DNA of 41,516 nt from Opitutus sp. GAS368 (GTDB lineage Bacteria > Verrucomicrobiota > Verrucomicrobiia > Opitutales > Opitutaceae): positions 1 to 41,516 of the forward strand of contig CAMDRP010000015.1 in assembly GCA_945906965.1 (NCBI GenBank), in the 5' to 3' direction. Each line of letters begins with the position of its first letter. Position 1 is the first letter of the stretch. Shown here one piece after another: positions 17,526-29,916 of this stretch. The notes beneath the pieces are model-generated. The model was given only the letters and a program-made list of their open reading frames with translations, was not told the origin of the DNA and searched no databases. The translations under genes and the position numbers were made by a program.

Positions 17526-19130
17526 ATGGCCCCACCGTCAAACCGCGCCGCTTCCGTACAACGCGGGTTCGGCCGCGTCGTCCTCCTTCTGCTCGCGGGC
17601 TTTTGCTGGACGGCCTGCACGCGTAAAGCAGAACCCAAGGCGCCGCCCACTTCGGCGGCGCCAGTCCAGATTTTGCGCGTCAGCCAGCGTAACGAACCCG
17701 CCTCACTCGATCCTGCGACCACGACGTTGCCCGACGAATTTGGCACCCTGCGCACGCTTCTAGAAGGCCTGCTCATTCCCGGAGAAAATACCTCCGCACC
17801 GCGCCCCGGAGTCGCCGAGCGTTTTGATGTTTCCGCCGACGGGCTAACCTACACGTTTTATCTGCGCACCGAGGCCCGCTGGTCTGACGGCGCCCCCGTC
17901 ACCGCCACGCACTTCATCGCCGCCTATCAACGCCTCCTTACGCCCAACACCGCCGCACCCAAAGCCAATACGTTTTTTTTCGTAAAAAACGCCCGCGCCT
18001 TTGCCACCGGTGCGCTGACCGATTTCAACGCCGTTGGATTCCGCGCCCCCAACGCCCACACGCTCGTCATCACGCTCGAGCAAGCGCATCCACGCTTCCC
18101 CTACATTGTGGCCAGCGGCCCGTGGTTACCCGTGCGCACCGATGTCATCGCCCAACACGGTCGCAGCTGGACGCGCCCCGAAAAATTCGTCGGCAACGGC
18201 CCTTTTGTCCTTAGGGAATGGCGCGCTGACCAACGTATCATCGTCCGCAAAAACTCGAACTGGCATAACGCTGCCCGGGTGCGCCTAGACGAAATCCAAT
18301 TCATCCGCTTCGACAGCGGCGACGCCGAAGAACGCGCGTACCGCGCCGGCCAAATCGATGCCACCATGTCGATTCCATCCTCAAAAATCGCCGTCTACCA
18401 AACCGATCGACTCGGCGAACTGCAACAGTCCCCGCTGATAGAAACGCGCTATCTCTCCTTCAACACGCGCCGTCCGCCGCTTAACGATGCACGCGTCCGC
18501 CAAGCCCTCGCTCTAGCGATTGATCGCCAGAAACTCGTCGAAAAAATCCTCCAAGGTGGCCAACCCGCCACCGGTCGTATGATTCCCCCGGCTCTGCGCC
18601 CCGCCGATGCTTCCAGCGAATTACCAGCCTCACACCGCCACGATCCCGCCGCCGCCCGCGCGCTCCTCGCCGCCGCCGGCCTTAACGCTAAAAATTTTCC
18701 GCGCCTTGAACTCTCTTTCTGGACCAGCCCAGCGGTCCTAGAGGCCATTCAAGCCATGTGGCGCGAAACCCTCGGCCTGGAAATCGCGCTCACGCAACGC
18801 GAAGCCCGGGTCCATCTCGCCGCCCTAGCCACCGGCGACTACGATATCGCTTTGATCAACGCGATTCCCGACATAGCCGACGCCTCCAACCTGCTCGGTG
18901 ATTTTGCCACCGGCGCGCCCGAAAATTATCCCGGCTGGAGCTCAACCGCGTTCGACGCGGCTCTCGCTCGCGCAGATTTTGTTTCCGCCGAGAATCAACT
19001 CCTCACCGCCGCCGCCGTGACCCCGCTTTATTTCAACCTCAAAACCTTTCTCCTTTCGCCCCGCGTCAAAGGCTGGCGCGAGGACGGCTTATGGGCGCCC
19101 GATTTTAGTGCGATTACAGTCGCGCCGTGA
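17526..19130 (+). CDS. OppA-like peptide-binding lipoprotein (SBP family 5), copy 1
   Basis: 534 residues. The N-terminus has a basic region, the core VVLLLLAGFCWTA and a lipobox with Cys at 31, so it is a lipoprotein. The mature sequence is a family 5 solute-binding protein: RVSQRNEPASLDPATTTLPDE, SADGLTYTFYLRTEARWSDG with VTATHFIAAYQRLL, and VGNGPFVLREW, all as in OppA/MppA. It should capture oligopeptides in the periplasm and deliver them to an OppBC-type permease. It is the first gene of a same-strand run with an M28 peptidase and a second binding protein. Compared with copy 2 it is shorter between the N-lobe motifs. Confidence 0.92.
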   Translation: MAPPSNRAASVQRGFGRVVLLLLAGFCWTACTRKAEPKAPPTSAAPVQILRVSQRNEPASLDPATTTLPDEFGTLRTLLEGLLIPGENTSAPRPGVAERFDVSADGLTYTFYLRTEARWSDGAPVTATHFIAAYQRLLTPNTAAPKANTFFFVKNARAFATGALTDFNAVGFRAPNAHTLVITLEQAHPRFPYIVASGPWLPVRTDVIAQHGRSWTRPEKFVGNGPFVLREWRADQRIIVRKNSNWHNAARVRLDEIQFIRFDSGDAEERAYRAGQIDATMSIPSSKIAVYQTDRLGELQQSPLIETRYLSFNTRRPPLNDARVRQALALAIDRQKLVEKILQGGQPATGRMIPPALRPADASSELPASHRHDPAAARALLAAAGLNAKNFPRLELSFWTSPAVLEAIQAMWRETLGLEIALTQREARVHLAALATGDYDIALINAIPDIADASNLLGDFATGAPENYPGWSSTAFDAALARADFVSAENQLLTAAAVTPLYFNLKTFLLSPRVKGWREDGLWAPDFSAITVAP

Positions 19131-19188: not shown

Positions 19189-20841
19189 ATGCGTTTCTTT
19201 ACCCTGTTCTTCGTGCTCGCCGCTGGCACTGCTTCGCTCTCCGCGGCCACGCCTCCGACGCTTTCTGGCGCGAGTATTCTCCAGCGCGTCAAAATTCTCG
19301 CTTCCGATGAATTCGAGGGTCGCGCCCCCGCTTCGCCCGGCGAAGAAAAAACCGTTGCTTACCTCGTCGACGAATTCAAAAAAATGGGTCTCGCCCCCGG
19401 CAATCCCAACGGCACCTACGTGCAAAACGTGCCAATGATCGGCATCACGTCGCAGCCCACGGCCACCTTCAGCGCCGGCGGACAAACATTCAAACCCACG
19501 CACCTGATCGACTACGTCGCGCTCTCCAAACGCGTCACGCCGCGCGTCGACGTCAATGCCAGTGAGATCGTTTTCGTGGGCTACGGTATCGTCGCACCTG
19601 AGTATGGCTGGGACGACTATAAGGGCCTTGATGTGCGCGGGAAAACCGTCGTCATGCTCATCAACGATCCGCCCGTCACCGATCCCGCGACTGGCCAGCT
19701 CGATTCGAAGGTTTTCGGTGGCAAAGGCATGACCTACTACGGGCGCTGGACTTACAAATACGAGATCGCCTCCGCCAAAGGTGCCGCCGCGTGTCTCATC
19801 GTTCATGAGACGGGCCCCGCCGGTTATCCCTTCGCTGTCGTCGCTGGCAGCTGGGGTCGCGAAAACTTCGACCTGCGCACGCCCGACGCCAACGCCTCCC
19901 GCGTCGCCGTCGAAGCGTGGCTCACGCTGGATTTCACGAAGCAACTGTTCAGCGCCGCTGGCCAAGATTTTGCCGCGCTCAAAGCCGCCGCCGCCACGCG
20001 CGATTTCAAGCCCGTAACCTTCAAAGCCCAGGCCTCGTTCGCCGTCGCGAACACCACGCGCGACGTCGGTTCCAAAAACGTCGCCGCGCTCCTCCCTGGC
20101 TCAGATCCGAAACGACGGCACGAATACATCGTCTACTCCGCGCATTGGGACCACCTTGGCCGCGATCCGAAACTCACGGGCGATCAAATTTACAACGGCG
20201 CCCACGACAACGCCTCTGGAACCGCACTGCTCCTCGAAATAGCGCAAGCCTTCAACGCCCTTCCCGCCGCTGAAAAACCCGCCCGCAGCATTCTCTTCCT
20301 GTCTGTTACCGGAGAAGAAAAAGGCCTGCTCGGTTCTCAATACTACGGCCGCGTCCCACTTTACCCGCTCAGTAAAACGCTCGCCAATCTCAACATCGAC
20401 GGCGCCAACGCCCACGGCCCCACCTCCGATATTGTCGTCGTAGGCAACGGCGCCACGTCAATCGACGACCTCGGCGTGCTCGTCGCCCAAACGCAGGGCC
20501 GCACCGTGCTCCCTGATCCCGCCTCCGAAAAAGGCGGCTACTACCGCAGCGACCACTTCGAATTCGCGAAAGTGGGCGTCCCCGCTTACTATCCCAAAGC
20601 CGGTCGCGCCTACCTCGGACAACCCGCCGACTACGGCCAAAAAATCGCCGAGGCCTACACAGCTAATGACTACCACAAAGTCAGCGACGAGGTGCGCCCC
20701 GATTGGACGTTTGAAGGCGCCGCGCAAGACGGCGCGTTTCTGCTCGAGGTCGGCCGCCGCATCGCCAACGACCCGCGTTGGCCTGAGTGGAAACCCGGCA
20801 ACGAGTTCAAGGCGCGCCGCGACCAGATGTTGCGCCAATAA
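19189..20841 (+). CDS. Exported M28 family metallopeptidase
   Basis: 550 residues with a Sec signal peptide (about 1-20, cleavage after LSAA). The middle part (about 60-290) carries a PA-like insert. The catalytic domain has the M28 zinc and catalytic residues in order: SAHWDHLG (His), [10 protein letters not shown] (Asp), [13 protein letters not shown] (Glu-Glu), NIDGAN (Asp) and YYRSDHFEF (His). Such enzymes are aminopeptidases or carboxypeptidases that trim peptides in the periplasm or outside the cell. Its place between two OppA-like lipoproteins suggests it makes short peptides for import. No Shine-Dalgarno sequence precedes the ATG. Confidence 0.93.
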
Positions 20842-20863
20842 CCGCTCACCCAAGCCCGCGCGC

Positions 20864-22504
20864 ATGTTTTTCCGCCCACGTTTAAGTTGGTCTCACGTAT
20901 TTCACCTGAGCGCCGCTCTGCTGTTCGGCGTGGTTTTCTCGGGCTGTAGCTCCCGCGAAAGTGCGGTCGTCGCCGGCAACCGCACGCAGACGCTCCACGT
21001 CAACAACTCCGCCGAGCCACGTGATCTCGACCCGCACACCACGACGATTCCCGCCGACATCAACGTCATCCGGGCCATCATGGAAGGCCTGTGCGAAGTT
21101 GACCCCATCACGTGCCAACCGATCCCCGGCGTCGCCGCCACGTGGTCTGTTTCACCTGATGGCCTCACGTGGACGTTTCACCTGCGCTTAGATGCCCGCT
21201 GGTCCAATAACGAGCCCGTCACCGCGCACGATTTTGTTTACGCATACCGCCGCATTCTAGCCCCCGCCCTCGGCGCCGAATTCCGCGACCAATTCCATAT
21301 TCTTAAAAACGCCGAAGCCTACGCCACCGGCAAACTCACCGATTTCAACGCCGTCGGCGTCCGCGCCATCGACGATCACACGCTCATGCTCACGCTGCAC
21401 CAACCCGTGCCGTATCTGCCCACGCTCGTGACGCAAATCTGTTGGTACCCGCTGCACCGCGCCACGATTGAAAAACACGGTCGCATCGATCAACGCGGCA
21501 CCGCTTGGACGCGCCCCGGCAACCACGTCGGCAATGGCGCCTTCACCCTCGCCGCGTGGACGCCTAATCAAAATCTCCGCGTCACCAAATCCGCCACTTA
21601 CTGGGACCGCGCGCACGTGACCCTCAACGCCGCCGTTTTCTATCCCATCGAAAACCCATCCGTCGGCGAAGCCGCCTTCCGCGCCGGTCAACTCCACATC
21701 GCCATCCCACCCGTCGCCAAAATTGTCGCCGCGCAGAAAGACCCTGCGCTCGCACCGTTGCTCCACGATGGCGTCGCGCTTTCCACCGCGATTCTCCGCC
21801 TGAATTGCCAACGCCCGCCGTTCACCGATGCGCGCGTCCGCCGCGCCCTCGCACTCTCGATTGATCGCACGCAACTCGCCCAACGTATCATTCACAGCAA
21901 CACGCCGGCCACCTCCTTCACCCCCCCCGCCTGCGCCGGATACACGGCCGATCCCGGCGTCGGCACTGATATCGTCGAAGCCCGCCGCCTCCTCGCCGCC
22001 GCTGGTTTTCCGGAGGGTCGCGGTTTCCCTAAGACAGAGGTAATTTTTTATTCCTACCACGGCACGGAGCAACCCGTCGCCGAGGCGCTCCAGCAAATGT
22101 GGCGCAGCCAACTCGGCATCGACGTCGCGCTCGTGCAGCAGGAGATGAAAACCGCTATCTCCGCCCGGCGCTCCCGCAGTTACGAGATTCTCGCCGGTTT
22201 TTGGAACGGCGACTACCTCGACCCCGCGACTTTTCTCGACGTCTTCCTGACAAACGGCGGCAACAACCAAACCGGCTGGTCCAGTCCCGCCTACGACCGA
22301 CTCATCGCCGAGTCCACGCGCACCGTCGATCAAACCGCCCGCTACACGCTCCTCCGCCACGCGGAGGCGATCCTGCTCGCCGAGGCGCCCGTAATTCCGC
22401 TCTACCACGTGCCGATGCGCCGCTTCCACGCCGCCTCGGTCCGCGGCTGGCACGAGAATCTCCTCGATTTACACCCGCTGAAATTTGTCTCCCTCGCGCC
22501 CTGA
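20864..22504 (+). CDS. OppA-like peptide-binding lipoprotein (SBP family 5), copy 2
   Basis: 546 residues from the ATG at 20864, 22 bases after the peptidase stop; earlier in-frame ATGs lie inside the peptidase gene. The signal core LLFGVVFSG leads to a lipobox Cys at 28. Family 5 features match copy 1: HVNNSAEPRDLDPHTTTIP, SPDGLTWTFHLRLDARWSN, VTAHDFVYAYRRIL, and VGNGAFTLAAW. The two proteins are clear paralogues but differ along their length, so they are not a recent duplication. They likely cover different peptide sets. It is convergent with the CxxCH gene, with eight bases between the stops. Confidence 0.93.
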   Translation: MFFRPRLSWSHVFHLSAALLFGVVFSGCSSRESAVVAGNRTQTLHVNNSAEPRDLDPHTTTIPADINVIRAIMEGLCEVDPITCQPIPGVAATWSVSPDGLTWTFHLRLDARWSNNEPVTAHDFVYAYRRILAPALGAEFRDQFHILKNAEAYATGKLTDFNAVGVRAIDDHTLMLTLHQPVPYLPTLVTQICWYPLHRATIEKHGRIDQRGTAWTRPGNHVGNGAFTLAAWTPNQNLRVTKSATYWDRAHVTLNAAVFYPIENPSVGEAAFRAGQLHIAIPPVAKIVAAQKDPALAPLLHDGVALSTAILRLNCQRPPFTDARVRRALALSIDRTQLAQRIIHSNTPATSFTPPACAGYTADPGVGTDIVEARRLLAAAGFPEGRGFPKTEVIFYSYHGTEQPVAEALQQMWRSQLGIDVALVQQEMKTAISARRSRSYEILAGFWNGDYLDPATFLDVFLTNGGNNQTGWSSPAYDRLIAESTRTVDQTARYTLLRHAEAILLAEAPVIPLYHVPMRRFHAASVRGWHENLLDLHPLKFVSLAP

Positions 22505-22512
22505 CCGCGCCG

Positions 22513-25500
22513 TCACTTTTTCGCCAGCGCTTCGAGATAATCCAAGAGCGAGGCGAATTCCCGCATGGTCAGCCCGTCGACCAAACCCGCGGGCATGACG
22601 GAAATCGGCAAGCGTTGACGCTCGGCGATGTCCTTTACCAAGAACGTAAATTCCTGCGCCGCGACGTTGCGTAATTTCACGCGGTCCGCCGCTTCGAGCG
22701 TGATGAAACCGACCTGTTGCGAACCGTCTTTCAATTTCACGATCTCCGTCGCGAAACCCTGCGCGATCGTAAAATTGGGATTGAGGATATTCCGCGCCAA
22801 CTCGGGCCGCGGGTACGTCTGGGCGATGTTGCCGAGATAAGGGCCTTTTTGCATTTCCGCCTGACTCACCGTGTGACAAGCCACGCACGTCTGACGCACG
22901 AAAATCTGCTCCCCAAGCCCCGCATCACCTTTCATTTTGATGACCTGAGCCACCGCGTCCTCGACACTCAACGTCCCCACGAGCGGACCACCACCCGCGC
23001 CCTTCGCGCCCAGCCGCAACGAAGTCACCGCGCTCTTCGCCGCTTTCACCACATCGGCATCCGCGTCGTTCACCGCGGCGAGGATTTTTTGGTCGATCGC
23101 GTGGAGTTTAAATTTATCTGCGGCCTTGATGATCTGAATGCGACGCGCGGTCGTCTCCCAACCGGTCGCCAGGGTCTTCGCGGCTAGTTCGCGCGCCTCG
23201 GGACTGCCCGACGCTCGGCTCGAAATTTTCAACAACGCGCCCTCAGCCCAGACTGCCGCCGGCGTGCCGACGTGCGCGGCCTCGGCTTCAAACACCGCGT
23301 GCATCACATCGAGTTTCGGCGCGTTTAAAAAGGCCTGACGCGCCGAATCGCTTTCTTTACCCACGCCTTTCCGGTCGTTCAACGAAACCAGAGCGGCCAA
23401 CATCGCGCGCGCGCCTTCCACGCTATCAGTCTTGGCCAAAGCCGCGACCGCCTGCGCCAGCACGCCCGCATTAGCCGTAGGATTCCGCGCCGCGCGCACC
23501 AACAACGGCACGCCTTCCACGGGAATTTCGTCAAGTGCCGCCATCTGCATCACGGCGTCGGCCGCGAGCTCGGGATTTTGCGCGGCGAGGGCGATGATGC
23601 GCGCGAGGGCTTCATTGGATTGGATGCGGTTGAGATTCATTTCGGCGACCAAATAACCGGCCTCGGCGGGCGTCGCGTTTGCGAGCAGCGCCTTGATGGC
23701 CGCAGCAATGCGTGGCGTCTCGCTCCAGACGACAGGTTGATAATAAGGTCCACGCGTGTCGGGCCGCGTGCCCCAAGAATCACCTTTCCACTCGCCATCC
23801 GTGAAATGCAACCGGCTCAAGATACGAATCAAATCCTGTCGATGCTCGGGCGTTTTTTCTTTTTCCAAGCGAGCCAAGACGCCATCGATGACGGGTTTCG
23901 CGTGAATGCGCGCCAACGCAAACACCGCTCCGGTGCGTTGCGCCTTAGGTGCTTGAGGCTGATCGAGGACCGCAAATCCGGCTGCGTAAGCTCCGAGTTG
24001 CGCGATCGCACGATAAGCGGTGTGCGCGACGCGTTCATCGGTATCACCGAGCAACGCGGCAATCTGCGGCGCGAGTGAGGTCAGATTCCGATGCACGGCG
24101 CCGATGATCGCTTCTAGTTTCACCTGGGCGTCTTCGCTCGACAGTCCGGCGGCAAAGGCGTCGGTCGGCGCATCCTTCCCACCGTCGGCGAGCGCACGCA
24201 ACACATACGGTTGCAAGGCCACGTCGTGGGTCAGGCCAGCGACGGCCGCATCGACGTTGCCACCGAAGGCGCGTTGCGTGATTGCGTAAACAGCCGCCAC
24301 GCGCGTCACGAGCGGTTTAGCGGGTTCGCGCGCGAGCGAGAGCAACCGCGCCGTCGTCTCCGCGTTCATTTCGCGGCGCAAGAGCGTGCGCTGCGCTTCA
24401 AGGCGAGTCCGGTGACTGGGTGATTCAAGGAGCGCAACCAACTCCGCGTCGCTTACACGTCCAAAATCCGGCAAGGCCGGCGCCGTGAAATTTTTTGGCG
24501 AGACGCGCACGATGTAGCCTACATCGGCGCCCGCCCAATTAAACGTCGCGCCTTTCCAGCTCGCTTGGTAAACGTGGCTCAACGCGTCGACGTCGGCGTC
24601 CGTTGGGCGGGTCATCGCCACGAATTTTTCAGGCGGCGCCGTCTCGATGTAGCTCGCTCCGCGCGGGGCGACGCCTTGGTGCCAGAGAGCGCCCGTGCCC
24701 CAGTCGCAGGTGAGCGGTCCATTCCATTTACCAAAACCGGGCTCATCCAGAAACAACGCGCCGCAGCCGGAGCCGCCGCCGTAATCCGCCAGCGGCTTCA
24801 CGTGCTCCGGCCCGAAATTTTTGTACAGATACGGGTAACCGTGATGCTCAAGCCCCGTGAAATTTTCGAGCCGGATGTCCCAACCGCCGCCGTCGTTGGT
24901 GTTGTCGCGAGCAAAGATATTGAGCAACGGGCCCACGGCGAGATCGACGATGTTACGCGTGCCCCGACTGAAAATTTCTAAACCCGTGCCATCGGGGCGA
25001 AAGCGCGTCACGCCACCGCCGCGATGTTGGACGGTGCGGCCATCGGTACCGACGGCCTTCATGTAGCCGAAATCGCCGACCGCGACGTAGAGCCAGCCGT
25101 CGATGCCGAGGCTCAAGCCGTTGGTCGTGTGGTCGGCGGGGCGATCGGCAAAACCGAAAGCGATGTCCTTGATGATAATTTTCGATTCCTCGGCCACACC
25201 GTCGCCGTCGCGGTCGATGAAAACGCTCACGTGCGGCGGATGTACGACGTAGAGCCGGTCGTGGTCCCAGACGAGGCCACGGGGCGAATCGAGGTCTTTG
25301 ACAAACTCCGTCACTTGATCGGCGCGACCATCGCCGTCGGTGTCGCGGAGCCGCAGGATGCGCCCACGATGCGGATCGCGACCCAGCGAACCGTTGCCAT
25401 CGCTCGACACATAGAGATCACCGTTGGGCGCCGCCGCCACGAAGACCGGATAATTCGCCGCTGCCGAGTTGGCGAAAAGCGTGACCTCAAAACCTTCGGG

Positions 25501-25677
25501 CACTTTCACATCTTTCAAAATCGCCGCTTCCTGCTCAGGCGTGAAGCGCAGGATTTTCGGCGCGACGTTGCCCTGAACTTTCAGAATATCCTCGGGCGAC
25601 TTGGTCTCCGCGGCTTGGGCCAACGCGTTAAAAAGAACAGCAAGAACGCAGGCGTTGAATAGGCGAACGAGGTACAT
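22513..25677 (-). CDS. PVC-type heme-binding CxxCH protein
   Basis: 1054 residues. There is a Sec signal at about 1-22 (ending AQAAE). Then a beta-propeller-like region to about 420 with VKVPEGFEVTLFANS, NGDLYVSSDGNGSLGRD, DTDGDGRADQVTEF and DRDGDGVAEESK, the last two calcium-binding-like Asp loops. The middle (about 430-880) is an Ala/Leu-rich array of HEAT-like helices. The C-terminus carries a cytochrome c motif, CVACH near 930, with a distal Met candidate in ISVMPAGL. This architecture (membrane-bound dehydrogenase domain, HEAT, cytochrome c) is characteristic of Planctomycetes and Verrucomicrobia and is thought to oxidise sugars in the periplasm, though substrates are unproven. The gene is monocistronic. 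Confidence 0.92.
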   Translation of the reverse strand: MYLVRLFNACVLAVLFNALAQAAETKSPEDILKVQGNVAPKILRFTPEQEAAILKDVKVPEGFEVTLFANSAAANYPVFVAAAPNGDLYVSSDGNGSLGRDPHRGRILRLRDTDGDGRADQVTEFVKDLDSPRGLVWDHDRLYVVHPPHVSVFIDRDGDGVAEESKIIIKDIAFGFADRPADHTTNGLSLGIDGWLYVAVGDFGYMKAVGTDGRTVQHRGGGVTRFRPDGTGLEIFSRGTRNIVDLAVGPLLNIFARDNTNDGGGWDIRLENFTGLEHHGYPYLYKNFGPEHVKPLADYGGGSGCGALFLDEPGFGKWNGPLTCDWGTGALWHQGVAPRGASYIETAPPEKFVAMTRPTDADVDALSHVYQASWKGATFNWAGADVGYIVRVSPKNFTAPALPDFGRVSDAELVALLESPSHRTRLEAQRTLLRREMNAETTARLLSLAREPAKPLVTRVAAVYAITQRAFGGNVDAAVAGLTHDVALQPYVLRALADGGKDAPTDAFAAGLSSEDAQVKLEAIIGAVHRNLTSLAPQIAALLGDTDERVAHTAYRAIAQLGAYAAGFAVLDQPQAPKAQRTGAVFALARIHAKPVIDGVLARLEKEKTPEHRQDLIRILSRLHFTDGEWKGDSWGTRPDTRGPYYQPVVWSETPRIAAAIKALLANATPAEAGYLVAEMNLNRIQSNEALARIIALAAQNPELAADAVMQMAALDEIPVEGVPLLVRAARNPTANAGVLAQAVAALAKTDSVEGARAMLAALVSLNDRKGVGKESDSARQAFLNAPKLDVMHAVFEAEAAHVGTPAAVWAEGALLKISSRASGSPEARELAAKTLATGWETTARRIQIIKAADKFKLHAIDQKILAAVNDADADVVKAAKSAVTSLRLGAKGAGGGPLVGTLSVEDAVAQVIKMKGDAGLGEQIFVRQTCVACHTVSQAEMQKGPYLGNIAQTYPRPELARNILNPNFTIAQGFATEIVKLKDGSQQVGFITLEAADRVKLRNVAAQEFTFLVKDIAERQRLPISVMPAGLVDGLTMREFASLLDYLEALAKK

Positions 25678-25679
25678 AG

Positions 25680-25878
25680 GTCAGATCTAAAGGGGGTAAA
25701 CTCAGTCCCCACCAACACCGAACGCCCTAACAATTTCAAGCCCGCCTCCACTTGCGCTCCGCCGGACACATGCGCTCCTGCATTCATGAGCATTTTCTAT
25801 TACCTGCTCGCCTCTCACTTTCACAATTCTTTGCGAAAGCTCTCGTTGTTTCGCTAGGTCCTTGGTTTCACGTGCCTT
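25680..25878. other. Intergenic region upstream of the decayed lipoprotein gene
   Basis: This stretch lies between the divergent CxxCH gene and the lipoprotein remnant and should hold the CxxCH promoter on the minus strand. I see no clear promoter pair, hairpin or RNA gene. A 63-codon forward frame across 25752-25943 overlaps the remnant and is not convincing. Confidence 0.3.
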
Positions 25879-26104
25879 TTGAAGCTAGGCGCGTTGCTAA
25901 CCGGCTGCGGGAAAAAAGATTCGAGCTCATCGCCCGCCGCTAAAACCGACTCGACCATGGCTGCGTCGGCCACTCCGCAAATCTGGCGAGTCGGCTACGG
26001 GGCCAAATCCCACGCTTTTGGACAACCATCCCTACAATTACATCTATCTAGAGAACGGAGCGGAGTTTAAACCCAATCGCCACCGCCAAAAGCCTCGGGC
26101 CTGA
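25879..26104 (+). pseudogene. Decayed lipoprotein gene upstream of oppB
   Basis: The frame from a TTG at 25879 gives a lipoprotein-like start (KLGALLTGCGKKDSSSS, lipobox LTGC), a Ser/Ala linker and IWRVGYGAKSHAF. It then becomes non-coding in appearance and stops at about 26070. From about 26020, the next forward frame gives plausible protein (DNHPYNYIYLENGAEFKPN) to a TGA at 26102-26104. No ATG or good signal core precedes the lipobox in frame. This looks like a remnant with lost ends and at least one frameshift near a TTTT run. Its position immediately before oppB is where oppA normally sits, but too little remains to prove it was a binding protein. Confidence 0.5.
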
Positions 26105-26211
26105 GCGAGATATAGCAGATTATCGAGTGAGCGCCGGACGAGTCGCACGCTTGCCATCGATTCGGCTCATGCTCTGTCTTTCACTCTTTCGCTTCCAGCC
26201 CACGTCGCACC

Positions 26212-27129
26212 ATGCTCCGCTTCACCTTCCGCCGCCTGCTCCAGATCATACCGGTGCTCTGGATCATTATCACGGCGACGTTTTTTATGATCCGCTTCGT
26301 CCCCGGCGGACCGTTCACCGCGGAAAAAGCCGTCACGCCTGAAATCCTACGCAACCTCGAAGCGCACTACGGCCTCAACAAACCCCTCTACCAACAGTAT
26401 TTTGATTACATGGGTAGCCTCCTGCGCGGCGATCTCGGCCCGTCCTTCAAATACCCCAATCGCACCGTCAACGAGATCATCGGCGACAAACTTCCGACGT
26501 CCCTCGAACTTGGTTTCATCTCTCTCGCCGTGGCCCTGACGATCGGCATCACGCTCGGCACCCTTGCCGCCGTGCGACGCAACAGCTGGCTCGATTACGT
26601 CTGCTCATCTACCGCGATGATTGGCATCTGCATTCCCACTTTTGTACTCGGACCGCTCTTCGTGCTCACGTTCGCGATTCACTTTCAATGGCTTAACGCC
26701 TCCGGCTGGTACGGCCCCTCGGATCGCATTTTACCCTGCCTCACCCTAGGTTGCGTCTACGCCGCCTACATCGCCCGCCTTACCCGCGGCGGCATGCTCG
26801 AGGTGCTCAACCAAGACTACATCCGCACCGCTCGAGCCAAAGGCGCCAGCGAGGCCCGCGTCGTTTTCAAACACGCGCTACGCGGCGGGTTGTTGCCGGT
26901 CGTTTCTTTTCTCGGACCCGGCATCGCCGGCATTCTCACAGGCTCGTTTGTCATTGAAACGATTTTTCAAATCCCCGGCCTCGGCCGCGAATTCGTCAAC
27001 AGCGCCTTCAACCGCGATTACACCTTGGTTCTCGGCACCGTCATCCTCTACGCCTCGCTGATCGTCCTACTTAATCTCGTGGTCGACGTGGTTCAGATCT
27101 GGCTCAACCCGAAACTCAAATTCGAATGA
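26212..27129 (+). CDS. oppB: Oligopeptide ABC transporter permease OppB
   Basis: 305 residues, the same length as E. coli OppB within a residue or two and clearly similar from end to end: FVPGGPFTAEKAVTPEI, GDLGPSFKYPNRTVNEII, IARLTRGGMLEVL and the cytoplasmic EAA loop around RTARAKGASEARVVFKHAL. Six membrane segments are expected. It forms the inner-membrane channel with OppC. Its stop overlaps oppC by four bases (ATGA). No gene for the OppD/OppF ATPases is in the window. Confidence 0.93.
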   Translation: MLRFTFRRLLQIIPVLWIIITATFFMIRFVPGGPFTAEKAVTPEILRNLEAHYGLNKPLYQQYFDYMGSLLRGDLGPSFKYPNRTVNEIIGDKLPTSLELGFISLAVALTIGITLGTLAAVRRNSWLDYVCSSTAMIGICIPTFVLGPLFVLTFAIHFQWLNASGWYGPSDRILPCLTLGCVYAAYIARLTRGGMLEVLNQDYIRTARAKGASEARVVFKHALRGGLLPVVSFLGPGIAGILTGSFVIETIFQIPGLGREFVNSAFNRDYTLVLGTVILYASLIVLLNLVVDVVQIWLNPKLKFE

Positions 27130-28022
27130 GCCCCACCACGCTCCCCTCCGCCGTCGTCACCCCCGAACAAATCGAAACGGGTAACTCGCTCTGGCACGAC
27201 GCTTGGTCGCGTCTACGCAAAAACCGCCTCGCCGTCTGCGGCGGCGCCACGCTGCTTGTGTTGGCGTTGCTCTGCGCGTTCGGCCCGTTTTTCACCCAGT
27301 CTTACCAAGATCAAAATCTCGACCTCGGCGCTTCAGGCCCCAGCGCCGCGCATTGGCTGGGCACCGATACGCTGGGCCGCGACCTATTTTCGCGTATTTT
27401 ATTTGGCGGACGCATTTCGATGATGGTCGGTCTGGTCGCGACGTTTGTCGCTTTGGCCATCGGCGTAACCTACGGCGCCGTTGCCGGCTTCTTCGGCGGA
27501 AAAATCGACGCCGTGATGATGCGGATCGTCGACATCATGTACGCCCTGCCCTTCACGATATTTGTGATCCTGTTGATGGTGTTTTTCGGGAGAAACATTT
27601 TTCTGCTCTTCTTCGCCATCGGCGCGGTCGAGTGGCTCACGATGGCACGCATCGTCCGCGGCCAGATCATCTCGATTAAAAAGATGGAATACATCGAGGC
27701 CGCCCGCGCGCTGGGCCTTGGCAAACGTCGCATCATCTTCCGCCACATGATTCCCAATATTTTAGGGCCGATCATCGTGTACACGACACTCACGATTCCC
27801 GCCGTGATGCTACTGGAAGCGTTTCTTAGTTTTCTCGGTTTGGGCGTACAACCGCCGATGAGCTCGTGGGGCGTACTCATCAAAGACGGCGCCGAGAAGA
27901 TGGAAGAATTCTGGTGGCTACTAGTATTCCCGGGGGGCGTGTTTTCACTCACGCTTTTCTCTCTAAATTTCCTCGGCGACGGCCTCCGGGACGCCCTCGA
28001 CGTGCGTTCTTCCAAAGACTGA
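27126..28022 (+). CDS. oppC: Oligopeptide ABC transporter permease OppC
   Basis: 298 residues, full length. The N-terminal cytoplasmic part has SLWHDAWSRLRKNR, then TM1, HWLGTDTLGRDLFSRILFGGR (the family's periplasmic signature), six membrane segments and the EAA loop EAARALGLGKRRIIFRHMIP that contacts the ATPase. It ends with NFLGDGLRDALD as in E. coli OppC. It is coupled to oppB; 31 bases later the lipid exporter gene starts on the same strand, so transcription may continue. Confidence 0.93.
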   Translation: MSPTTLPSAVVTPEQIETGNSLWHDAWSRLRKNRLAVCGGATLLVLALLCAFGPFFTQSYQDQNLDLGASGPSAAHWLGTDTLGRDLFSRILFGGRISMMVGLVATFVALAIGVTYGAVAGFFGGKIDAVMMRIVDIMYALPFTIFVILLMVFFGRNIFLLFFAIGAVEWLTMARIVRGQIISIKKMEYIEAARALGLGKRRIIFRHMIPNILGPIIVYTTLTIPAVMLLEAFLSFLGLGVQPPMSSWGVLIKDGAEKMEEFWWLLVFPGGVFSLTLFSLNFLGDGLRDALDVRSSKD

Positions 28023-28053
28023 AGCAAGCGACTTCCCTTATTTATCCAGCCCC

Positions 28054-29916
28054 ATGATCGGACGCTTCCTGCCTTATTTAAGATACCTTAAGGGTCGGCG
28101 CTTAGCACTCTCGCTAGCACTCGTCTGTGGCGCCATCAGCGGACTGGTTTACGGCTATGGTTTACCGAAGGTGATAAACGAAGTGTTTCCGAAAATATTT
28201 ACGGATGACACGGGGCAACCCAGCCCTACGAATCTAATCAAATCTCCGACTCCTTCTGCCGCCAACGCCACGAACGCACTTCCGGTATCAGCGGAAGAAC
28301 AAGTCGCGTCCAAACACCGCATCCGGGCCGGTCGCACACTCTCAGCCTATGAAATCATCGGCTATGCACTATTGATCCCGCTGATTTTTCTCATCCGGGC
28401 CACGAGTGGCTTTCTTAATAATTACCTCATGAGTTATTGCGGGATCGGCGTACTTGAAGCCTTGCGCGTCGAGCTTTACCGCAAGCTCCAACACCTCCCC
28501 CTGAGCTATTTTGGGCGTAATCGCAGCGGTGATCTGCTCTCACGTCTTACTTCCGACACCCAGGTCGTCCAACAAACCATCACCAGCAGTGCCAGTGATC
28601 TAGTTATACAGCCCATCACTCTTCTCGGCGCAGTCTACTTCCTGGCCATCACCGCATTGAAAAACGACGGCGTCGGTCTCTTCCTCGCCTCGCTCGCGGT
28701 CGTACCCCTCAGCGTTTTCCCCGTACGTTTCATTGGCAAAAAACTCCTGCGCCGCGCCGAGGAAAATCAACGCCTGTTGGGCGACATCTCTGATCTCGCC
28801 AGTCAAAATTTCTCCGCGGCGCGTGAAGTACGAGCCTTCGGGCTCGAAGAAAAAGAAATCAGCATCTTTCAAACCACCACCCGCCACCTGTTTCGCATCC
28901 AACTCAAAGTCGTAAAATACTCTCAGGTGCTTTCTCCCTCCATCGAGGTCATCGCATCGCTCGGCATCGCGTTCTCACTTTATTATGCCTACTACGCCGG
29001 CTTAACGCTCGCCGTTTTCGTGTCTATCCTCGGGGCCCTTTTCGTGTGCTACGAACCGATGAAAAAACTCGGAGGCATCCACGGCCAACTTACCAAAGGC
29101 GCCGCTTCACTCAACCGCATCGAGGAAATCCTGCACGCCAGTGTTACCATCGCCGACCCCAGAGACCCGATCAAAGTCAGCCACCTTCGGGGTGAACTCA
29201 CCTTCAATCAGGTCAACTTTGCCTATAATACGGGTGCGCCCGTCCTTCGCGACGTCTCAGTAACCATTCCTGCCGGCACCATCTGCGCGCTGGTGGGACC
29301 CAGCGGCGCCGGCAAGTCCACCTTCGCCAACCTCGTTCCACGTTTTTACGATGCGACCAGCGGCATCGTTACCATTGATGGGCTCGACACCCGCGCGCTG
29401 AAACTCTCCGACCTTCGCCGTCACATCGCCGTCGTTGCCCAAGAACCCGTACTTTTTAACGACACGATCCTTAATAACCTCTTAATCGGTCGGGCCGACG
29501 CCACCCGCGCGGAAGTCGAGCAATCGGCCCGTGACGCCTTCGCGCATGATTTCATCACCGAACTGCCCCAAGGCTACGACACCATTGTGGGAGAACGCGG
29601 CGCCCTCGTCTCCGGTGGACAGCGCCAACGCCTCGCCCTCGCGCGCGCTTTCCTGCGCAACGCCCCGATCCTCATCCTCGATGAAGCCACCAGCGCACTC
29701 GACAGCGAGAGCGAAGCCGCCATCCAGCTCGCCCTCAAAAAATTAGTCGTCGGTAAAACTGTGCTCATCATCGCCCACCGCTTTTCTACCATTCGCGACG
29801 CGACGAAAATCCTCGTGTTCGACCAGGGTGAGATCGTCGCCGCCGGCACCCACGCCGAACTTCACGCGAACCAGCCGCTTTACCGTTCACTCTACGACCG
29901 GCAACAAGGCGCGTAA
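28054..29916 (+). CDS. MsbA-type ABC exporter (permease-ATPase half transporter)
   Basis: 620 residues. The N-terminal ABC transporter membrane domain (about 15-350) has six segments. A polar insertion of about 50 residues (about 45-100) lies between the first two segments, longer than in E. coli MsbA. The ATPase domain has Walker A GPSGAGKST (about 415-423), LVSGGQRQRLALARA (signature, about 515-530), Walker B ILILDEATSALD (about 538-549) and the H-loop IIAHRFST. It probably flips lipid A-core across the inner membrane, given the glycosyltransferase genes that follow, but other lipid or peptide substrates are possible. Confidence 0.88.
   Translation: MIGRFLPYLRYLKGRRLALSLALVCGAISGLVYGYGLPKVINEVFPKIFTDDTGQPSPTNLIKSPTPSAANATNALPVSAEEQVASKHRIRAGRTLSAYEIIGYALLIPLIFLIRATSGFLNNYLMSYCGIGVLEALRVELYRKLQHLPLSYFGRNRSGDLLSRLTSDTQVVQQTITSSASDLVIQPITLLGAVYFLAITALKNDGVGLFLASLAVVPLSVFPVRFIGKKLLRRAEENQRLLGDISDLASQNFSAAREVRAFGLEEKEISIFQTTTRHLFRIQLKVVKYSQVLSPSIEVIASLGIAFSLYYAYYAGLTLAVFVSILGALFVCYEPMKKLGGIHGQLTKGAASLNRIEEILHASVTIADPRDPIKVSHLRGELTFNQVNFAYNTGAPVLRDVSVTIPAGTICALVGPSGAGKSTFANLVPRFYDATSGIVTIDGLDTRALKLSDLRRHIAVVAQEPVLFNDTILNNLLIGRADATRAEVEQSARDAFAHDFITELPQGYDTIVGERGALVSGGQRQRLALARAFLRNAPILILDEATSALDSESEAAIQLALKKLVVGKTVLIIAHRFSTIRDATKILVFDQGEIVAAGTHAELHANQPLYRSLYDRQQGA

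Follow-up and report, generated by a model that had tools for sequence, protein, structure and literature searches.

The segment at positions 25786-26059 of the window, the term used here for the whole 41,516-nucleotide stretch of Opitutus sp. GAS368 DNA that was analysed, is the wreck of a gene for an oligopeptide-binding lipoprotein. This gene, named oppA3 here, is intact, with about 570 codons, at the same place in five genomes of the same genus (Opitutae/Opitutaceae MAGs). The window copy is a pseudogene that arose through a 1,439-bp deletion, a premature stop codon and the loss of the natural stop. It shows collinear homology to the intact SBP_bac_5 orthologues at the locus and carries disabling lesions where the relatives have an open frame. 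Directly downstream, oppB and oppC are maintained, and the permease probably remains useful through seven other binding proteins (SBPs). In this explanation, which we consider very probable, oppA3 once headed an oppA3-oppB-oppC cluster and was destroyed by the internal deletion and the two stop codon changes, and a single OppBCDF set would be served by the seven other SBPs. The genes of two of these lie 3.7 to 8.7 kb upstream, and the other five are found on different contigs.

Table 1 Features of the oppA3-oppBC region, in window coordinates
Feature	Position	Strand	Evidence or remark
oppA1, intact SBP_bac_5 lipoprotein gene	17526..19130	+	
oppA2, intact SBP_bac_5 lipoprotein gene	20666..22504	+	
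Opposing gene, DUF7133 / HEAT / cytochrome c	22513..25677	-	Precedes the oppA3 slot in the window as well as in 5 relatives
5' remnant of oppA3	25786..26008	+	Gapless alignment from the ATG with 5 intact relatives; tblastn E 6.5e-23
Premature in-frame TAG, codon 24 of the former oppA3	25855-25857	+	Frame open here in 5/5 relatives
Deletion junction	26007-26010	+	Alignment with 5 intact relatives; best junction placement
3' remnant of oppA3 (...LLDNHPYNYIYLEN), next frame	26009..26059	+	Alignment; tblastn
Element CGCTTGCCATCG(A/T)TTC, 16 bases, 49-64 bp before oppB	26148..26163	+	Comparison across 13 genus genomes
oppB, intact permease subunit	26212..27129	+	
oppC, intact permease subunit	27126..28022	+	

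Anatomy of the oppA3 remnant

A decayed lipoprotein gene in the oppA slot before oppBC had been read from the DNA alone as a lipobox and linker in one frame, continued by plausible coding sequence in the next. Both frames lie where they were placed and are non-random. In tblastn searches of the 2.5 kb before oppB, the intact oppA3 of one relative (G003) matches the N-terminal piece (E 6.5e-23), and that of another (G012) matches the C-terminal piece in the second frame (E 2.4e-5). The first frame is the OppA N-terminus and the next frame holds the last residues of OppA (LLDNHPYNYIYLEN); the remnant thus carries both ends of oppA3. The site was correctly located, but the predicted extent of 25879-26104 is too short at the 5' end and too long at the 3' end.

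The 5' remnant contains the start codon ATG 25786, the TAG, a signal-peptide core, the lipobox LTGC (25897-25908), a Ser-rich linker and the mature N-terminus up to QIWRVG(Y)GA. The lipobox frame reads LLKLGALLTGCGKKDSSSS... and, after the linker, TPQIWRVGYGA. Contrary to the original prediction that there is no clear start codon, ATG 25786 falls in the same alignment column as the start ATG of all five intact relatives, and it is the TAG that severs it from the rest of the frame. From this ATG onward the window aligns with the relatives without a gap for 70 codons. The internal deletion measures exactly 1,439 bp (about 480 codons) against each of the five relatives, and because 1,439 is not a multiple of three, the frame is shifted and the C-terminus is read in the next frame. 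Imperfect microhomology of 3-4 nt, judged by eye, is seen at the junction. The second frame, LLDNHPYNYIYLENGAEFKPNRHRQKPRA, ends at the stop TGA 26102-26104. The natural stop shared by all five relatives is altered in the window at 26057-26059, and the sequence beyond 26059 is read-through past this lost stop.

Of about 570 codons, the remnant retains about 74 from the N-terminal part and about 16 from the C-terminal part. The SBP_bac_5 binding domain is absent from the remnant, its stretch having been deleted, and the remnant frame is without a Pfam match; the window copy cannot fold as an SBP. The intact oppA3 of G003 (longest open frame, 625 codons) matches SBP_bac_5 (PF00496) with E 5.9e-97, and its closest solved chain is OppA 1b05 (E 2.4e-107). 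The closest curated model is NF011684 OppA (E 1.2e-117), which is matched with 393.9 bits and thus below the cut-off of 947, so by sequence the protein is classed as OppA-like and not as a certified OppA.

The deletion is known from a single allele in this one record, a search for other genomes that share it having found none, and the record is a draft of 190 contigs that is probably a MAG. Even so, an assembly or binning artefact, with an intact oppA3 in the living population, is very unlikely. Both flanks are collinear with the five relatives and the junction does not lie between long repeats, only the imperfect 3-4 nt noted above being present. Further, the TAG at codon 24 and the lost stop fall outside the deletion, which argues against an assembly error.

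Intact oppA3 is under purifying selection in the relatives (dN/dS 0.05-0.12). For the N-terminal piece of the remnant, dN/dS is 0.46-0.57 compared with 0.42-0.61 among four relatives, a comparison that covers only 69 codons and four of the five relatives (the rows for L040 were left out; its true start was used in the junction alignment). Over these 69 codons the piece shows no excess of amino acid change over intact pairs, and this ratio adds no sign of relaxed selection. This unraised ratio, together with a signal-peptide core, lipobox and linker that are readable after the TAG, would be compatible with a small functional lipoprotein that descends from oppA3 and acts, for instance, as a decoy or a leader peptide for oppBC. 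In principle, a late TTG start could also allow the 5' remnant to yield a short lipopeptide. We consider such a product highly improbable. The frame is cut by the TAG, runs into shifted sequence and has no Pfam match, and none of 27 family loci without an adjacent SBP shows such a remnant when SBPs of this genus are used as queries. The original prediction had named conservation of the short frame alone, as a small lipoprotein, as evidence against a decayed oppA; none of the 12 other genus genomes yielded a short-form homologue.

The oppA3 slot in relatives

The oppB query was searched in 38 genomes, comprising the organism's own and those of relatives. Matches have 94-98% identity in nine same-genus genomes and 89% in one more (G004); no close copy was found in two of the 12 other genus genomes (G010 and G011). 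An intact oppA-oppB-oppC order, which had been proposed as a check in sister species, is present in five genomes (G002, G003, G006, G009 and G012), where the opposing gene is followed by intact oppA3, oppB and oppC. All five of these genomes are incomplete (80-93%). The window itself bears out the remaining neighborhood as predicted, with oppB intact downstream and two complete OppA-like genes, oppA1 and oppA2, beyond the opposing gene. In G002, G003, G006 and G012 the opposing gene is likewise preceded by oppA2 (the G009 sequence stops short of the site), oppA1 and an M28 peptidase gene precede oppA2 in G003 and G012, and the end of the M28 gene is visible in G006. The real start of oppA2 in the window is probably further downstream than the listed ORF start, since the latter overlaps the M28 peptidase gene. 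From isolate names, the relatives appear to be freshwater organisms.

Across the genus, oppA3 matches of at least 78% identity occur in eight of the 12 other genomes, full length or nearly so and in one open frame. G004 has its oppA3 orthologue one SBP further upstream. In G007 and G001, oppA3 and oppB are on different contigs, and only 76 bp before the G007 oppB are covered. The 4.0, 5.4 and 9.0 kb available before oppB in G001, G005 and G008, respectively, contain other ORFs, and no SBP was detected there. Unrelated genes at this site had been put forward as a possible objection to a decayed oppA; the reading stands, since both ends of oppA3 are present at the site in the window itself.

A wider survey covered 80 family-wide oppB loci, of which 75 were considered (L133-L135, L137 and L138, 33-40% identical and from other phyla, were left out). 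Nine of these have less than 1.5 kb before oppB and 66 have at least 1.5 kb; it should be noted that some of the 66 records are the same genomes as in the 38-genome search. A same-strand SBP ends at most 700 bp before oppB in 39 of the 66 loci, lies further upstream in 8 and is absent from the available stretch in 19. None of the 27 loci lacking an SBP directly before oppB has a remnant adjoining oppB (tblastn, E 1e-3, last 2.5 kb or shorter, with the SBPs of this genus as queries); in five of the 27, only the end of the next SBP was seen, about 1.8-1.9 kb away.

At one of the 39 loci with an adjacent SBP (L100, Opitutaceae UBA6669), the SBP before oppB is split into two open frames of 344 and 248 codons within about 1.9 kb, possibly another broken oppA or a sequencing error.

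Maintenance of oppBC and its upstream element

Both permease genes remain under strong purifying selection, with pairwise dN/dS between the window and the five relatives of 0.022-0.042 for oppB and 0.002-0.022 for oppC. A 16-base element, CGCTTGCCATCG(A/T)TTC, precedes oppB in the window (Table 1) and recurs with almost the same spacing in nine further genus genomes, three of which have no upstream SBP; it is thus present whether or not an SBP gene precedes oppB. In 10 of the 13 genus genomes its exact form CGCTTGCCATCGWTTC occurs a single time, always before oppB, and G004 (oppB 89%) is without it. A sigma-70-like promoter was not recognised before oppB. On comparative grounds the element is a candidate promoter or leader element of oppBC, and oppBC is probably expressed from a promoter independent of oppA3, because the sequence before oppB is kept in three genus members that have no SBP there. 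A regulon defined by CGCTTGCCATCGWTTC was considered and found unsupported, the sole exact copy in each of the 10 genomes being the one before oppB. With up to two mismatches, 1-10 copies per strand and genome were counted, including the exact ones, versus 0-4 for the reversed control.

The region behind oppC has also changed. Positions 28017-28060 are the scar of a second deletion, of 670 bp relative to a G002 contig (C90, L053), which took an RHH/PIN (VapBC-like) gene pair between oppC and an ABC exporter gene and left, by eye, only some 20 bases from the end of the PIN gene before the exporter ATG. The same pair lies behind oppC in another G002 contig (C109, L038), and PIN-gene homologues are found there in G005, G007 and G008. 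Compared with its positional counterpart in G003 and G012, the exporter (28054-29916) shows only about 56% identity. It is closer to the exporter that follows the PIN gene in G008, at 86%, and to that of G002 contig C90, at 93% over 266 residues. These sequence comparisons indicate that an exchange of the exporter took place in the oppBC operon.

One permease and many binding proteins

The window genome, a draft with 96.8% completeness, has seven intact SBP_bac_5 matches (two in the window and five on other contigs), counted with a rebuilt profile and without the antisense ORF of L005. One OppB, one OppC and two adjacent oligo_HPY ATPases on contig C1 (the OppDF pair) were detected, so that SBP genes outnumber OppBC and OppDF sets by 7 to 1 to 1. 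Compared with their G003 or G009 orthologues, the seven SBP genes have dN/dS values of 0.04-0.13 and are under purifying selection; all SBP comparisons fall within 0.04-0.15, save one pair at 0.24, for which dS is just 0.027. In a gene tree of 54 SBPs, eight orthogroups are resolved among close relatives, and the window genome is represented in seven, with oppA3 as the sole one missing. SBP ORFs of more than 300 codons were taken into this tree; they come from 10 of the 13 genus genomes (all but G001, G008 and G011), with partial coverage of G004, G005, G007 and G010.

Two irregularities were noted in G002. One SBP orthologue (G002:C88, L156) differs from its window-genome counterpart (G000:C8, L004) by a dS of 0.027, compared with 0.41-0.56 for four other SBP genes; either a recent recombination took place, or the G002 genome includes a foreign contig. 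G002 also has a second oppBC contig, and over the last 201 oppB codons one of the two oppBC contigs shares 98% identity with G003.

It had been suggested that the permease lost its own binding protein and now uses those of the two complete OppA-like genes. Gene counts, taken from incomplete genomes, agree that the remaining SBPs probably feed this permease, and to the two SBPs seen in the window five more elsewhere in the genome have to be added. The sharing itself very likely predates the loss, since four of the five relatives with intact oppA3 show one OppBC beside seven SBPs: in G003, G006, G009 and G012, the oppB query matched only oppB and oppC, while each genome gave seven SBP matches, including a few contig-end fragments. 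In G012 (85% complete), no oligo_HPY ATPase was detected. Thus, rather than turning to the other SBPs now, the permease probably went on using them.

We reject a relocation of oppA3 to another place in the genome, as the closest match there, at E 1e-30 or better, is a paralogue with 58% identity. This paralogue raises a different possibility, namely that oppA3 was displaced by its closest relative, the SBP of an SBP plus GFO/IDH/MocA oxidoreductase module on contig C2, and then became dispensable. The C2 SBP (L001) belongs to the group closest to oppA3 in the tree and occurs in four of the 13 genus genomes, among which only G009 also has an intact oppA3; the corresponding site in G002, G003 and G006 cleanly lacks the 3.2-kb module (L177:7048-10249, G000:C2). 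We regard displacement as unlikely. The association is not significant (Fisher p = 0.22, 13 non-independent genomes), G009 keeps both genes, G008 and G011 have neither, and genome incompleteness can mimic absence. The module is inverted in G005 and G010, and the G009 copy is without about 530 bp.

Since both the SBP gene and the VapBC-like pair were deleted (1,439 and 670 bp), the oppBC operon could also be seen as being stripped to a bare permease. The SBP role would then have passed to the movable SBP-oxidoreductase module, and Opitutaceae SBP genes would be freely swapped around a single conserved permease, which in this genus would possess a promoter element of its own. This broader scenario seems to us rather doubtful. 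The explanation favored here, loss of oppA3 from a permease probably shared with seven other SBPs, has counterparts in other bacteria. The peptide permease DppBCDF of Pseudomonas aeruginosa is likewise one permease served by several SBPs (DppA1-A5); there, function was shown with mutants and complementation (PMC4206461), whereas in the window genome it is read from gene counts and one SBP gene is wrecked. The pneumococcal Ami permease has similarly been assigned several SBP_bac_5 lipoproteins (AmiA, AliA, AliB, AliC and AliD), but it belongs to another phylum, and no SBP pseudogene is described in the available part of the source (PMC11192437). In the Opp system of Borrelia burgdorferi, five oligopeptide-binding proteins are combined with two heterodimeric permeases and one heterodimeric ATPase, the binding proteins being independently regulated and the permeases and ATPases constitutive (PMC5736914). 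Binding proteins outnumber transporter sets there as well; the system differs in its phylum and in having two permeases instead of the one pair found here, and the available part of that account describes no pseudogene (PMC5736914). The open-access collection searched yielded no literature on an Opitutaceae oligopeptide pseudogene or on Verrucomicrobia OppA.

The oppA3 remnant is an ordinary, well-resolved pseudogene and a new instance within a one-permease, many-SBP system like Pseudomonas Dpp and pneumococcal Ami. In the window, the lost gene can still be read at both ends, whereas no remnant was found in the 27 of 66 family loci that have no SBP directly before oppB. What is otherwise ordinary gene loss thereby offers a clear snapshot of a permease uncoupling from its neighboring binding protein, and it is a warning to annotators that the substrate of a permease should not be assigned from the adjoining gene.
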